Source of the DNA: a virus
DNA: 30,740 nucleotides
Virus record (IMG/VR): IMGVR_UViG_3300046482_000269
Location: 1-30,740 of that record
Direction: 5' to 3' (one strand)
Shown: positions 5,469-27,871 of the stretch, piece after piece
Position numbering within the stretch: position 1 is the stretch's first letter
Layout of the letters: every line of letters begins with the position of its first letter
Translations under genes and position numbers: made by a program
The notes under the pieces: model-generated
What the model was told of the DNA's origin: nothing
Seen by the model: the letters and a program-made list of their open reading frames with translations, nothing else
Database searches by the model: none

Positions 5469-5898
5469 GGGTAGCAGCCTTCTTTTGTTCCCGACGATAG
5501 CGATCTAGCCGTGCCTTTTTCTGGAAGCAGCCGAAACACAATTCGCGATGCGGCATCGCTTTGCGATGACGACAGTAGGTACAGATATCTTTCGCTTTCA
5601 TGCGCGCATAACGTGCGGCAGAGTCTTGCCGCATTTTCTCTGCACAATCGGCACAGCGGCGCTTGCCTTCGAGGGCTGGCGCTTTCTTGCAGTCTTTGCA
5701 GATGCCTTGCGAGACGGTTTTCCAATAGGCGGTATGGTCCTTCTCCATACATATCTCACATAATCGACGATTGGGGACGGACGGCCTATGACAACGAGGG
5801 CACAGCCTCTGCTGTTTATCTAAGTCCTGCAGCGAATCATGCGAATCATGCACGATTGGCTGTTTATCTAAGTCCTGCAGCGAACCATGCGGCGGCAC
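5461..5898 (-). CDS. triple zinc-ribbon protein with duplicated N-terminal peptide
   Basis: The 145-residue product has six CxxC knuckles in three pairs: CPRC/CEIC, CKDC/CADC and CTYC/CFGC, each pair spaced 11-12 residues apart. They form three successive zinc ribbons about 30 residues apart, ending in a Lys/Arg-rich helix. GTG 5898 is chosen because AGGAGGA stands six to seven bases before it; ATGs further upstream lack such a site. The N-terminus contains SLQDLDKQ twice, from a 48-bp-period DNA duplication. The gene overlaps the ParB-like gene by 35 bp. It probably binds nucleic acid or protein; the target is unknown. Confidence 0.7.
   Translation of the reverse strand: MPPHGSLQDLDKQPIVHDSHDSLQDLDKQQRLCPRCHRPSVPNRRLCEICMEKDHTAYWKTVSQGICKDCKKAPALEGKRRCADCAEKMRQDSAARYARMKAKDICTYCRHRKAMPHRELCFGCFQKKARLDRYRREQKKAATHA
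5811..5890. repeat. two 32-bp direct repeats, period 48 bp
   Basis: The 32 bases from 5811 to 5842 recur at 5859-5890 with a single T/C difference. Each begins GCTGTTTATCTAAG and ends CCATGC or TCATGC. The period is a multiple of three, so the zinc-ribbon protein keeps frame and gains a repeated peptide. The second copy overlaps the last codons of the ParB-like gene (stop near 5864). A recent tandem duplication is likely. Confidence 0.8.
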
Positions 5899-6874
5899 CG
5901 AGAGTCCTCCTGAACGATGGTTCATCATAGGGCACGGGCTCATCGGTCAAATGCCAGTCCTCATTAATGAACCGCATGGCCGTTTTGCGACTATACGGCG
6001 TTCCTTCGATCAGGATCGGAATCTCTGTCGATGGCATAGAGACGTTTCCACGACTGCGTTCCGTATACATAGCATTCCAGGCAACGGCGGTGATATATGC
6101 CAGCTCGACAGCGCTGCGCCGTTGGACATGGGCCTCCGTCTGAAACCACTTCGCCAGCAACCGCGTCGGATGGGACGGGAAAATATGGTCTTCATGGGCG
6201 ATTTGATGCCAGAAGGTTTCGGCCATGCCGGGATTGAAGCGATACTGGACAAGGGCCATCGCGAGGATGGGTTGCCTGAGCAGATAGTCATGCCAGCGCT
6301 TTTGACAGCCTGCGATATCCCGGACAAACCACGTCGCCTCATTGGTCCATTTCAGGGCCGCCAGATAGAGCAATTCGTTATCCCGCAGATAGCCATGTGT
6401 TTTGATGGCCTTGGGTGTGCTATAGACAAAGCCGGAGAGGACAAGGCGCATGGCACTAAAGAGGACCTCCCCCTGTCGCTGGCTGAGACCGCTGTGCTCG
6501 GCAAAGCCATAGGCTTTCAGCATGTCCCTGGGGCTACGCTGGAGTTGCCGGTCAAACGTGTTGTAGAGCATGTCGATCTCGTTGGGACTGCTGACGTGAT
6601 AGCGTTGCAGCGTGACCCAGAGGGGTTTGTCGGCACGGATGATGGCATGCAACGTATGATTGCCGTTAATGATGTATTCCCGTCCGCCATGAATGGCCAG
6701 GGCCACCTCCGTGCCAGGGCGGTGTTTGGCGATGCTGATGAGATAGCGTAAAAACTCGACATGATGCTCACGAATGGGCCGTTGGCCTTCATAATGGGCG
6801 TTGTTAACCCACGTTTGCGCCTCGCCGGGATGTACCTGATAGCGTTCTACGGTAAAGTGAATATTTGAGAGCAT
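5864..6874 (-). CDS. ParB-like nuclease-domain protein
   Basis: The 336-residue protein has a ParB/sulfiredoxin-type N-terminal region: an amphipathic RPIREHHVEFLRYLI helix, a strand EVALAIHGG, and the signature INGNHTLHAII (about 69-79), followed by a strand leading to WVTLQRY. The remaining 230 residues are alpha-helical and not assigned. Phage ParB-like proteins may bind or nick DNA, or act as CTP switches; activity here cannot be judged. ATG 6874 follows AAAGGAG at five bases. An in-frame ATG at 6946 overlaps the upstream stop but has a poor ribosome site. Confidence 0.72.
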   Translation of the reverse strand: MLSNIHFTVERYQVHPGEAQTWVNNAHYEGQRPIREHHVEFLRYLISIAKHRPGTEVALAIHGGREYIINGNHTLHAIIRADKPLWVTLQRYHVSSPNEIDMLYNTFDRQLQRSPRDMLKAYGFAEHSGLSQRQGEVLFSAMRLVLSGFVYSTPKAIKTHGYLRDNELLYLAALKWTNEATWFVRDIAGCQKRWHDYLLRQPILAMALVQYRFNPGMAETFWHQIAHEDHIFPSHPTRLLAKWFQTEAHVQRRSAVELAYITAVAWNAMYTERSRGNVSMPSTEIPILIEGTPYSRKTAMRFINEDWHLTDEPVPYDEPSFRRTLGAAAWFAAGLR

Positions 6875-6935
6875 GTGCGCTCCTTTCTTTGGTGCTGGCC
6901 AGCGGGTATCTTGCGCATACCTGCTGGCTTCGTGC

Positions 6936-7187
6936 TCAATGATCATTGCCCTGCCAGCCATCGACCGCATTCGGGAAGACCTCGCAGCCCACTCCGAAGT
7001 ACACGGCTTCATAGCCGAACTCATCGATGGCCAGCGAGAGATCATAGATCAGACTTTTGAAGATGCGGTCCTGTCTTGTTGTCTGCGTTTCTCCTTTGAC
7101 CATGTTGTCGTCCGTGTGTTCTACCTCCAGGCGTGGCGGGAAACTCTGCAACCAGTGCCGAATTTGCTCTTTATCTGGCGTGCTCAT
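6936..7187 (-). CDS. 83-aa hypothetical early protein
   Basis: ATG 7187 is preceded by GAGGA with about eight bases spacing and overlaps the XRE regulator gene by 17 bp. The product has a helical start (TPDKEQIRHWLQSF), a charged middle and a mixed C-terminus with a Phe/Tyr/Gly-rich segment. No known motif. Co-expression with the regulator is likely from the shared promoter. Confidence 0.6.
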   Translation of the reverse strand: MSTPDKEQIRHWLQSFPPRLEVEHTDDNMVKGETQTTRQDRIFKSLIYDLSLAIDEFGYEAVYFGVGCEVFPNAVDGWQGNDH

Positions 7188-7380
7188 CCTCGTCTTCCTC
7201 AAAAAAGCGTGCGATAGGCAGCCCTAATTCACTTGCCAGTTTTTGTATCTGTTGTGCTGTGATCGCAATGGTGTGATGTTCGTATTTGCAGTACGTCGAG
7301 GTTGCTACGCCCAGGATGCGGGCAAAGCTTTCCTGGCTGGCTTTTCTGGACCTGCGAATCTCCCGCAGTCTCAGTCCCAT
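7171..7380 (-). CDS. XRE-family (Cro/C1-type) transcription regulator
   Basis: The 69-residue protein is a single helix-turn-helix domain: LREIRRSRKASQESFARILGV, then ATSTYCKYEHH as recognition region, and an acidic C-terminus FFEEDEDEH. ATG 7380 has GGGGGAGG four to five bases upstream; an ATG at 7401 has none. It is the promoter-proximal gene of the early minus-strand operon, so it may autoregulate it. The second XRE regulator at 9498 is on the other strand, as in lysogeny switches, although about 2 kb separate them. Confidence 0.8.
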   Translation of the reverse strand: MGLRLREIRRSRKASQESFARILGVATSTYCKYEHHTIAITAQQIQKLASELGLPIARFFEEDEDEHAR

Positions 7381-7419
7381 AGGGCCTCCCCCTTCCGTCA
7401 TGGTATCCGGTAAGCGGAA

Positions 7420-7447
7420 ATTCTACACCTTTAAAATTTCCTTGCAA
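7420..7447 (-). promoter_or_regulatory. sigma-70-like promoter for the early minus-strand operon
   Basis: TTGCAA (7442-7447) and TAGAAT (7420-7425, read on the minus strand) are separated by 16 bp, with an AT-rich spacer. Transcription would start near 7413, about 33 bases before the XRE start codon. The promoter lies between that gene and the hairpin-bounded HNH insertion. Confidence 0.6.
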
Positions 7448-7464
7448 GAAACTTTTTGTCCATC

Positions 7465-7536
7465 AGTTCCCTCGTTTCTGGGAACTCCGGCGTTCAGGCC
7501 GGAGAGGAAGAAACGTGCGTGCCAACGAGCACGCAC
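7465..7536 (+). repeat. three consecutive hairpins, the middle one resembling an IS605-type end
   Basis: AGTTCCC/GGGAACT (7465-7486, 8-base loop), CTCCGGC/GCCGGAG (7485-7504, loop GTTCAG) and GTGCGTGC/GCACGCAC (7515-7536, 6-base loop) follow one another. The middle hairpin and its tail AGAGGAAG resemble right ends of TnpB-type IS200/IS605 elements, which end in a stem with a TTCA-like loop. I read it as a degenerate end or the start of a structured RNA. Confidence 0.5.
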
Positions 7537-7686
7537 AGCTTTGTTCAGGGTTTTTCCCCAGGTTGTACAATGTTTGTGCACTGTTTCTGTTTGGCATACT
7601 GAGGTACACTTTTCTTGTCGCCGTAGGGCATACGGAGACGTTAAACGCCTGCGAAAAGCATGAGTCCTGGGGGGGAAGCTGGTTCC

Positions 7687-8109
7687 ATGTATGATCCAGT
7701 CGCCGCACATCTGTACTACGAAGCACATAAAGACGAACGACGTGCGCGCTATCTGGCAAATCAGGAACAAGCAAAAGCCTATCAGCGTGAATACAAACGG
7801 ACTCATTGTGCCTACCGCATGCTGCATAAAGCCAAGGAGCGTGCGAAAAAGCTTGGTATTCCCTTTAACATCACTCTGGCTGACATAGTGATCCCTGAGC
7901 GCTGTCCTGTGTTTGACATCCCTTTGACCTATAACACTGGAAAACGTGTTGATAGCACAGCAACGCTTGATCGTCTTGTCCCCAAGCTTGGCTATGTCAA
8001 AGGCAATGTTGCAGTGATCTCCTGGCGAGCCAATAAGATCAAGTACAAGCATACCTTTGAGGAGTTGCGGCGCATTGTGCAATGGATGTCCTCCTTTGAC
8101 ATCGGTTAG
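7687..8109 (+). CDS. HNH-like endonuclease, stand-alone
   Basis: The 140-residue protein has a basic helical N-terminus (KDERRARYLANQEQAKAYQ) and a compact C-terminal nuclease region. That region has CPVFDIPL (C73 on), TLDRLVPKLGYVKGNV (93-108) and ISWRANKIK (111-119). The LDR...GYVKGNV...N-x-IK pattern is typical of phage HNH-type proteins in which some zinc cysteines are lost. The start is uncertain: ATG 7687 has a G-rich stretch about 11 bases away, and ATG 7660 is an alternative without a ribosome site. It is one of two HNH proteins in the window and the only gene inside the hairpin-bounded segment. Homing or element mobility is inferred. Confidence 0.72.
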   Translation: MYDPVAAHLYYEAHKDERRARYLANQEQAKAYQREYKRTHCAYRMLHKAKERAKKLGIPFNITLADIVIPERCPVFDIPLTYNTGKRVDSTATLDRLVPKLGYVKGNVAVISWRANKIKYKHTFEELRRIVQWMSSFDIG

Positions 8110-8174
8110 GGGGATTGCATGAGCGAAAACCAAGCCAACAAACTCCCTCCGGGCAGCATAAAAAGTAACAGGAA

Positions 8175-8225
8175 CGGGGAATTGCTCCCCGGAATCCTCG
8201 TCCTTCAGGGCGAGGAGCATGTCAA
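8175..8225 (+). mobile_element. IS200/IS605 (TnpB-type) right end
   Basis: CGGGGA/TCCCCG (8175-8191, loop ATTGC) is followed after GAA by a 9-bp stem 8195-8203/8208-8216 with loop TTCA and one T-G wobble, then GCATGTCAA. From general knowledge, this arrangement is the recurrent 3-prime end of TnpB elements, where it also forms the 3-prime part of the omega RNA. No tnpB coding sequence lies upstream. The final GTCAA supplies the stop codon (TCA, 8222-8224) of the convergent minus-strand gene. Confidence 0.65.
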
Positions 8226-8584
8226 CATGGAAACAGTTGGATGCTGGGAGTTTCGCATGGCAAGAAGCCTCTGAAAAACCAGGGGAATTTCAGAGTGAGA
8301 GGCTCTGCGCTTGGGCGAGTGCGGAAGCAGGACGGAAGCACGCGGGGGAGCCTGCAGGCTCCCGCCGGGTGGGGTGGTTCGTCGTCGTCCGTGGGCAGCC
8401 GCAGCACGAAGCCGTTGCCGAGATCGACCGTGCCCGGTGGCGTGCCTGTGGGCGGCTGGAGGTGGGCCTGCCAGCGCTCCCGCTCCTGCGGATCGCACTG
8501 ATGGCGTCTGGCCTGGGCGCGGGTGGCGTACAGGTGCCCACAGTGGGGACAGCCGGGGCCGTAGAACGTGCGTGTGCGTCTCAT
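8222..8584 (-). CDS. small zinc-finger protein whose 3-prime end runs into the IS605-like end
   Basis: ATG 8584 follows AAAGGAG at seven bases and overlaps the upstream TGA (ATGA). The first 75 residues look genuine: GCPHCGHLYATRAQARRHQC holds a C2H/C-type zinc knuckle, followed by an acidic PTDDDEPP stretch. The last 45-50 residues are translated through palindromic sequence (8269-8295, 8346-8363) and stop inside the IS605-like terminus at 8222. I infer that the original C-terminus was lost and replaced by junction sequence. Confidence 0.6.
   Translation of the reverse strand: MRRTRTFYGPGCPHCGHLYATRAQARRHQCDPQERERWQAHLQPPTGTPPGTVDLGNGFVLRLPTDDDEPPHPAGACRLPRVLPSCFRTRPSAEPLTLKFPWFFRGFLPCETPSIQLFPC
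8269..8363. repeat. two inverted repeats next to the IS605-like end
   Basis: CTCTGAAA (8269-8276) pairs with TTTCAGAG (8288-8295) around an 11-base loop. Further right, GGGAGCCTG and CAGGCTCCC (8346-8363) form a perfect 18-bp palindrome. Both fall within the doubtful C-terminal coding part of the zinc-finger gene. They may mark the original terminator of that gene or part of the inserted element's flank. Confidence 0.5.
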
Positions 8585-21025: not shown

Positions 21026-21058
21026 GGCTCCAACTCCTCTTGTTGGTCCTCAGATGTA

Positions 21059-21108
21059 GCACGGCAGCCAGTGAGGTGCTGGGATTCGGGCCGTCGCCCT
21101 AGCCGTGC
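21059..21108 (-). promoter_or_regulatory. folded leader element upstream of the HNH gene
   Basis: GCACGGC (21059-21065) pairs with GCCGTGC (21102-21108). Inside are AGC/GCT and GGGC/GCCC mini-stems, giving a three-way junction. It lies 33 bases before the HNH start on the minus strand and could be a translation control element. The inner stems are short, so the fold is less certain than the one at 28142. Confidence 0.35.
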
Positions 21109-21132
21109 CATCGGCAGTATAGCAGGTGCCTT

Positions 21133-27616: not shown

Positions 27617-27871
27617 CTAGCGCCCGTTATCGCGGCCGAGCAGGTCCTTGATGGCCGTGAGCGTGAGATCAATATGTTCGATGGTGCGCTGGAGTGCGTC
27701 CATGCGCTGCTGGTGCGCATCCATCCGCAGGTGATGCCGCTCGAGCATCTCGGCATAGGCGGTGAGCCAGTGCTGGTGCACGCCGAGGCGTTCCTTGTGG
27801 TCAATCAGCGTATCGGCGTGGAGCTGCATGGCACGCTGGAGGAGTTCCAGGGGGGTCGGTGTGGTGTCCAT
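27617..27871 (-). CDS. 84-aa soluble coiled-coil protein
   Basis: The protein is one long His/Gln/Leu-rich amphipathic helix (LLQRAMQLHADTLIDHKERL and on) with heptad spacing, ending HIDLTLTAIKDLLGRD. No membrane segment is present. ATG 27871 follows TAGGAGGACGCGCC. A longer open frame reaching 28204 is rejected because it shadows the next gene. A relic of a second copy of its 3-prime end lies at 4075-4146, so the gene belongs to a family once present twice. Confidence 0.7.
   Translation of the reverse strand: MDTTPTPLELLQRAMQLHADTLIDHKERLGVHQHWLTAYAEMLERHHLRMDAHQQRMDALQRTIEHIDLTLTAIKDLLGRDNGR

Follow-up and report, generated by a model that had tools for sequence, protein, structure and literature searches.

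The window analysed here, a 30,740-bp IMG/VR virus contig that encodes a terminase, a portal and a major head protein, carries a non-autonomous IS200/IS605-type element (PATE, palindrome-associated transposable element) in which an HNH endonuclease gene sits between the two halves of one omega-type RNA, in the loop of a 10-bp predicted helix. We favour the reading that the HNH gene is nested inside the omega-type RNA of a phage-borne PATE, and put its probability at roughly 0.7. Below we describe the anatomy of the element, the kinship of its ends with those of IS200/IS605 elements and the recent movement of a sibling. On one side the element is flanked by a repressor-like HTH gene (7171-7401, minus strand), on the other by a possible minus-strand gene starting at 8584; it comprises the following features, given in window positions:

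7460-7463, plus strand: putative target tetranucleotide CCAT, directly 5' of the element, from the left-border alignment of relatives and the empty/filled pair of the sibling in sister contig L002
7464-8225, plus strand: the entire non-autonomous element (PATE of IS200/IS605 type), HNH gene included, at about 762 bp; recognised by homology of both ends, with deduced borders
7473-7515, plus strand: left-end stem, made of an outer stem (7473-7478/7510-7515) and an inner hairpin (7485-7504)
7516-7535, plus strand: second left-end hairpin, with CCAACGAG in its loop, as in several relatives
7605-7610, plus strand: candidate -10 box TACACT, common to relatives (GGTACACTT) by eye and missed by the consensus scan
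7621-7684, plus strand: 5' half of the omega-type RNA, a hairpin CCGTA/TACGG followed by the long helix's 5' arm
7666-7675, plus strand: 5' arm of the HNH-enclosing helix, CCTGGGGGGG, overlapping the likely ribosome-binding site of the gene
7687-8109, plus strand: HNH endonuclease gene, 140 aa, phrog_3322, from a PHROG match and a structure model
8110-8225, plus strand: 3' half of the omega-type RNA and right end, from the match to RNA model R2 and 74% identity to locus L060
8144-8153, plus strand: 3' arm of the HNH-enclosing helix, TCCCTCCGGG, pairing with 7666-7675
8175-8191, plus strand: right-end hairpin 1
8196-8215, plus strand: right-end hairpin 2, with GGAAT before it
8222-8225, plus strand: right border TCAA, the end of GTCAA

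The original prediction, made from the letters of this DNA, had placed the borders at 7465 and 8225; the right one stands, and the left one is off by 1 bp, at 7464 instead. The CCAT target has ATG in its reverse complement, and the uninterrupted empty site of the window element is predicted to read ...TTTTTGTCCAT^CATGGAAACAG.... If the RNA is used in trans, 8226-8245 (plus strand) is presumably the TnpB guide position, by the architecture of TnpB-omegaRNA systems. The proposed absence of TnpA and TnpB from the element holds: neither was found by comparing both-strand ORFs with Pfam and PHROGs or by TnpB tblastn, and the ORFs of 7464-8225 gave no Pfam match to Y1 TnpA. Antisense ORFs of 264 aa and 102 aa across the element matched nothing in PHROGs, and nothing in Pfam above cut-off. 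No plus-strand promoter-like site was detected in the element by a consensus scan, and five terminator-like stems were detected by scan, compared with a mean of 1.3 in shuffles. At gathering thresholds, no Rfam family falls within the element, and no intron family is present among the three Rfam matches at E ≤ 10 over 7380-8320.

Homology of both ends confirms the IS200/IS605-like character that had been assigned to them. The right boundary had been described as a TnpB-element end with two hairpins and GTCAA, and the same end indeed follows TnpB elsewhere. A relaxed pattern scan for it in IMG/VR returned at least 119 stretches. Among the matches listed, the window and the loci from L048 on hold 125 right-end-like sites, and a TnpB match (tblastn, one query) lies within 2,200 bp upstream at 90 of these, including one match in the opposite orientation and one at a distance above 1 kb. 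No TnpB match was found at the other 35 of the 125 listed sites, several of which are truncated at contig ends. A right-end site also follows a Pfam-confirmed TnpB in Morganella phage IME1369_01. Protein ARM67932.1 of this phage (KY653118.1, 35015-36163), annotated as a 'putative virulence protein', is a TnpB by Pfam.

The left boundary, predicted as a stem with a GTTCAG loop plus two more hairpins, recurs elsewhere with strong covariation. A relaxed left-end pattern was found in four IMG/VR stretches, one being the window's sister contig, and in one bacterial MAG, G001 (SXND01000032). R1, our covariance model for the left end, was made from 14 sequences with the window included, so the window's score of 74.7 bits, its sole match at E ≤ 0.05, is set by construction. 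Realigned on 19 distinct rows, R1 has changes on both sides in 15 of 18 pairs; pairing holds in 93.4% of cells, a share that drops to 40.7-52.8% when the partners are slid. MAG G001, which is about 6 Mb in size and holds locus L061, was searched by scoring 150 of 2,952 left-end candidates, and contains at least 29 left ends by R1 at E ≤ 1e-6; the four other genomes searched from its phylum gave none. Among 20 left-end loci examined in G001, 15 have TnpB downstream and 5 end at a contig edge within about 70 bp. Two further left ends (L238 and L239) are followed by a Y1 TnpA and then a TnpB; the Y1 TnpA is intact in C226 and contains stops in C43, and of the two TnpBs one is interrupted and one open. 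Because the left end precedes both TnpB and TnpA plus TnpB in G001, it is the left end of an IS605 family. Beside its left ends, G001 has 59 matches to the RNA model R2 described below, and the four other genomes have at most one; G001 thus represents a large expansion, and is a possible host group for these phages.

To describe the RNA at the right end, we turned to four TnpB-less loci (L060, L177, L105 and L240) with a common RNA of about 205 nt that reaches the right end; L105 has no R1 left end. The covariance model R2 was built from these four sequences, with the window left out. Both-side changes occur in 14 of 45 pairs of its structure, and 98.8% of cells are paired compared with 36.5-54.1% when slid, a contrast that is partly built in because the structure was derived from the same four sequences. 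R2 matches the window at 8018-8225 with 50.6 bits (E 1.8e-14); the fit is good over 8110-8225, and its 5' part fits the HNH coding sequence poorly. Searched over 77 loci, R2 also matches many TnpB-element 3' ends, such as those of L130 (70.4 bits), L066 (68.7 bits), L089 (62.6 bits) and L048 (60.3 bits). A model made without the window thus recognises its right end together with TnpB-element 3' ends, and so we class this RNA as omega-type, as the original prediction had suggested.

The RNA lies at the right end, where the omegaRNA is found in TnpB systems, by R2 and by Rfam matches below gathering: HgcC at 29 bits (gathering 50, E 1.4e-4) and sot0042 at 18.6 bits (gathering 88). Excerpts of one source describe sot RNAs as regarded as omegaRNAs (PMC12558985). 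A strict regular expression for the 5' part of the RNA matched 3 of the 125 listed right-end sites, all TnpB-less, and no TnpB-bearing site among those listed; the longer RNA is therefore known so far only from TnpB-less elements. In a viral scan, a pattern for the 3' half recovered L050, L060 and L177 together with L227-L229, the latter three without the left end. L060 also resembles HPnc0580 at 23.6 bits (gathering 37), a hint only; HPnc0580 appears among uncharacterised sRNAs in an excerpt of PMC8322730.

The 5' half of the RNA is found on the other side of the HNH gene. Local alignment of 7621-7684 gave scores of 26.5 to L060 and 19.5 to L240 (0 of 1000 shuffles in each case) and 15.5 to L177 (1 of 1000 shuffles), and R2 alone gave the 5' half 6.5 bits (E 0.32). 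The coding sequence, 7687-8109, almost exactly fills an RNA junction that L060 and L240 span with about 30 nt. The helix arms 7666-7675 and 8144-8153 pair with each other at 10 of 10 positions. Each window arm forms 9 of 10 pairs with each relative's arm, and the L105 5' arm forms 10 of 10 with the L060 arm; cross-pairing is nearly as good, which makes arm covariation a weak test. For the 611-nt transcript, the minimum-energy structure contains the enclosing helix, with pair probabilities of 0.48-0.84 (mean 0.75). When 8110-8169, the region of the 3' arm, was shuffled, the mean helix probability was 0.001 and 0 of 40 shuffles reached 0.5. With the ORF shuffled and the arms kept, the mean was 0.25 (12 of 40 reaching 0.5), and with the ORF removed it was 0.135, indicating that the prediction depends on sequence context. 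As the likely ribosome-binding site is the 5' helix arm, one transcript may act as mRNA or as folded RNA, in a putative switch between RNA folding and HNH translation.

The 140-aa HNH-type gene that had been recognised inside the element corresponds to the ORF at 7687-8109; if translation began at an in-frame ATG at 7660, the protein would have 149 aa. Its product belongs to phrog_3322 (3.8e-36), a common free-standing phage nuclease family found in 110 phage records. The ORF is intact and retains the invariant residues of the family (C, D, GY, N and AN), and the protein has zero Pfam or NCBIfam hits. Its structure model (pLDDT 91.8) has an HNH fold with the conserved motif. Its structural matches are weak, and a different fold scores about as well: the top Foldseek match is the HNH enzyme PacI (probability 0.97, E 0.066), with nothing at E ≤ 0.001, and the best Z with VIA is 6.0, with a dehydratase domain tied at 5.9. 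The G+C content of the gene is 0.48, compared with 0.62 for the window.

The HNH gene and the element were not found together elsewhere. At E ≤ 1, the left end was found at none of 45 loci with HNH relatives, some of which end beside the gene, and blastn of both ends over the HNH-relative loci did not find the ends with HNH elsewhere. In the other direction, HNH tblastn over 205 other loci (E ≤ 1e-3) returned the sister contig only, and a search of five genomes of G001's phylum, run with no positive control, returned no HNH gene. With the HNH gene occurring without the left end and the ends without the HNH gene, the association is not conserved. Both observations that the original prediction had named as refuting it were made, HNH relatives without the left end at these loci and such ends on ten elements without HNH, and the proposed reduced OMEGA-like system with an HNH effector is unsupported, since HNH and element are unlinked elsewhere. 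The other suggestion made for this locus, a mobile relic or an element of homing flavour, was nearer the mark. Because the two are otherwise unlinked, we describe the locus as a non-autonomous element with a nuclease gene nested inside it, and not as a reduced IscB/OMEGA system. By sequence comparison, the two seem to be independent mobile units that came together once, here. The nesting is known from one lineage, the window and one near-identical contig, so it could be a chance, decaying event.

Ten elements that share the left end but lack a recognised gene were measured at 351-425 bp, whereas the window element with its HNH gene is about 762 bp; nine of the ten are in phages and one (L240) is in the MAG G001. 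The TCAA right border is present in 4 of the 10, the remaining ones ending otherwise, and two have antisense ORFs (133 and 124 aa). Several phages carrying such elements are protein-related to the window's phage, at up to 62% identity. The sister contig L002 matches the window without a difference over 4,925 bp and at 99.97% identity over 3,097 bp, and contains an extra 425-bp sibling element at window 8584/8585 (CTCAT^CGGTC), with no duplication. The empty site of the sibling, in the window, and its filled site, in L002, can be placed side by side; this sibling is the best evidence of mobility, and it moved recently. The original prediction had proposed looking for empty sites in related phages, and the outcome is clean for the 425-bp sibling; for the window copy none was found, the search via the left-flank protein (5864-7042) returning only the sister contig.

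A second kind of element has the same left end and another RNA, and is found at L002:4926-5350, at L177:7894-8263 (minus strand), and at L181, L179 and L054:10091 onwards. By eye, it has a changing outer stem around GTTGCGG..CGTAAAA and right borders that are mostly TGAC or TTAC. In the L002 copy, Rfam gave nothing above threshold.

Insertion at start codons in general was considered and rejected, as pooled ATG and GTG sites showed no enrichment (16 of 36 vs 161 of 369). At YCAT targets, a subset chosen after this pooled result was seen, the element directly adjoins the ATG of an ORF of at least 80 codons on the opposite strand in 9 of 11 cases, against 46 of 160 in the control (p 7e-4). The left borders compared for YCAT were those of the window (7460-7463), L060, L002, L177, L049, L187, L193, L196, L197 and L205. 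At such targets the left end, read outward, is GGAGG-like at ribosome-binding distance by eye. The window's own YCAT-side opposite-strand ORF has only 10 codons.

On the favoured reading, a free-standing, homing-type phage HNH gene would have entered the element as a nested mobile gene, and TnpA from a host IS605 element with matching ends would move the element in trans. The HNH protein would be expressed from the element's own transcript. The element could then have two routes of maintenance and copying, TnpA transposition and copying driven by the HNH nuclease. A host TnpB may be guided by the RNA, and HNH may or may not help.

The nested arrangement could instead be dead, the HNH gene having chanced into a decayed PATE, with RNA and gene uncoupled and the ends immobile. 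Restriction to a single lineage, the lack of tnpB, the context dependence of the helix prediction and the uncoupling of HNH and ends elsewhere are all as expected from such a relic. However, the HNH ORF is intact with its invariant residues, structure is kept at both ends, and a sibling has moved recently, differing between near-identical phages; we consider a relic possible but doubtful, in an estimate that overlaps with the one for nesting. At the other extreme, HNH may have replaced TnpB as the nuclease of the element and promote its retention, by analogy with a nuclease in a group I intron loop. Lying in an RNA loop with an intact end on either side, the gene is placed much as intron-encoded endonuclease genes are. 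Excerpts of PMC10278001 state that TnpB likely maintains its transposon, a role that HNH would take over. The arrangement is known from one lineage, though, in a protein family normally without these ends, and we regard such a replacement as rather unlikely. A fuller version, in which HNH in TnpB's place would cut empty sites and so keep or spread the element, with RNA folding versus translation as the switch, strikes us as distinctly improbable; the cutting may rely on HNH's own specificity or, at its boldest, be RNA-assisted.

Two further explanations fare worse. That one element holds both an HNH protein and an omega-type RNA might suggest a reduced OMEGA system, in which the RNA would guide the HNH protein as in IshB or IscB. 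Yet the protein family lacks such ends at all 45 loci, the protein has 140 aa with only the HNH fold in its model and no Pfam or NCBIfam domain, and the RNA is at the right end and fits a model that matches TnpB-element ends, which makes guidance of this protein very unlikely. Short hairpins are common, and the excess of terminator-like stems over shuffles might point to unrelated terminators or regulatory stems resembling IS ends by chance, but this is already contradicted by the left end being common to TnpB loci, by its covariation and by the R2 match at E 1.8e-14, and we give it almost no credence.

PATEs, omegaRNAs and phage HNH genes are each already known. Neither a PATE with an HNH gene nor a gene inside an omegaRNA was found in titles or abstract openings among the matches listed from the open-licence literature. 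In group I introns and IStrons, a structured mobile RNA holds a nuclease gene in one of its peripheral loops, and IscB and IsrB OMEGA elements combine an HNH-type protein with an omega RNA in an IS200/IS605 frame. The window element resembles the former in the nuclease gene in its RNA loop, but it differs from them in that Rfam returns no intron family over 7380-8320. With TnpB-omegaRNA elements (IS200/IS605, IS1341 group) it has in common the left end, the right end, the TCAA border and the omega-type RNA; unlike in these, TnpB and TnpA were not found and a gene lies inside the RNA. The window gene is like free-standing phage HNH genes in its phrog_3322 family and conserved motif, and unlike them in its left end, which was found at none of the 45 loci of its relatives. 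Similarity to IscB, IsrB and IshB elements lies in the HNH-type protein with omega RNA in an IS200/IS605 frame (for IshB, from excerpts of PMC12477157), whereas the window's phrog_3322 protein shows no RuvC part by Pfam or NCBIfam and the RNA is at the right end, TnpB-like. An IscB-type protein would combine HNH with RuvC or PLMP, and neither database returned a hit for the window's protein.

PATEs of Haloquadratum and Halanaerobium are described as short, transposase-less elements with near-terminal IS605-type palindromes and no target duplication (PMC3119063, PMC7290912), and some of them, HqIRS71 and a 271-bp Halanaerobium element, keep tnpB 3' sequence (PMC3119063, PMC7290912). Like these, the window element has near-terminal IS605-type palindromes and no transposase gene; unlike PATEs as described there, for which gene cargo is not mentioned, it has an intact nuclease gene as cargo, belongs to a phage and has retained an omega-type RNA. 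If the nesting is functional, an IS200/IS605 element would have recruited an unrelated nuclease in place of TnpB; according to excerpts of PMC12477157, one postulated step towards the origin of IscB is the entry of an HNH protein into an OMEGA element. Even if the nesting is non-functional, phages carry omega-type RNAs on TnpB-less elements, which would need a nuclease or transposase in trans. The defined ends, target and predicted empty site make the nesting directly testable.

Elsewhere in the window, 21047-21109 (minus strand) matches the Rfam family int-alpA at 41.2 bits (gathering 35.8), and 46 bp at 27631-27676 are 87% identical to positions 425-470 of the sister contig L002.
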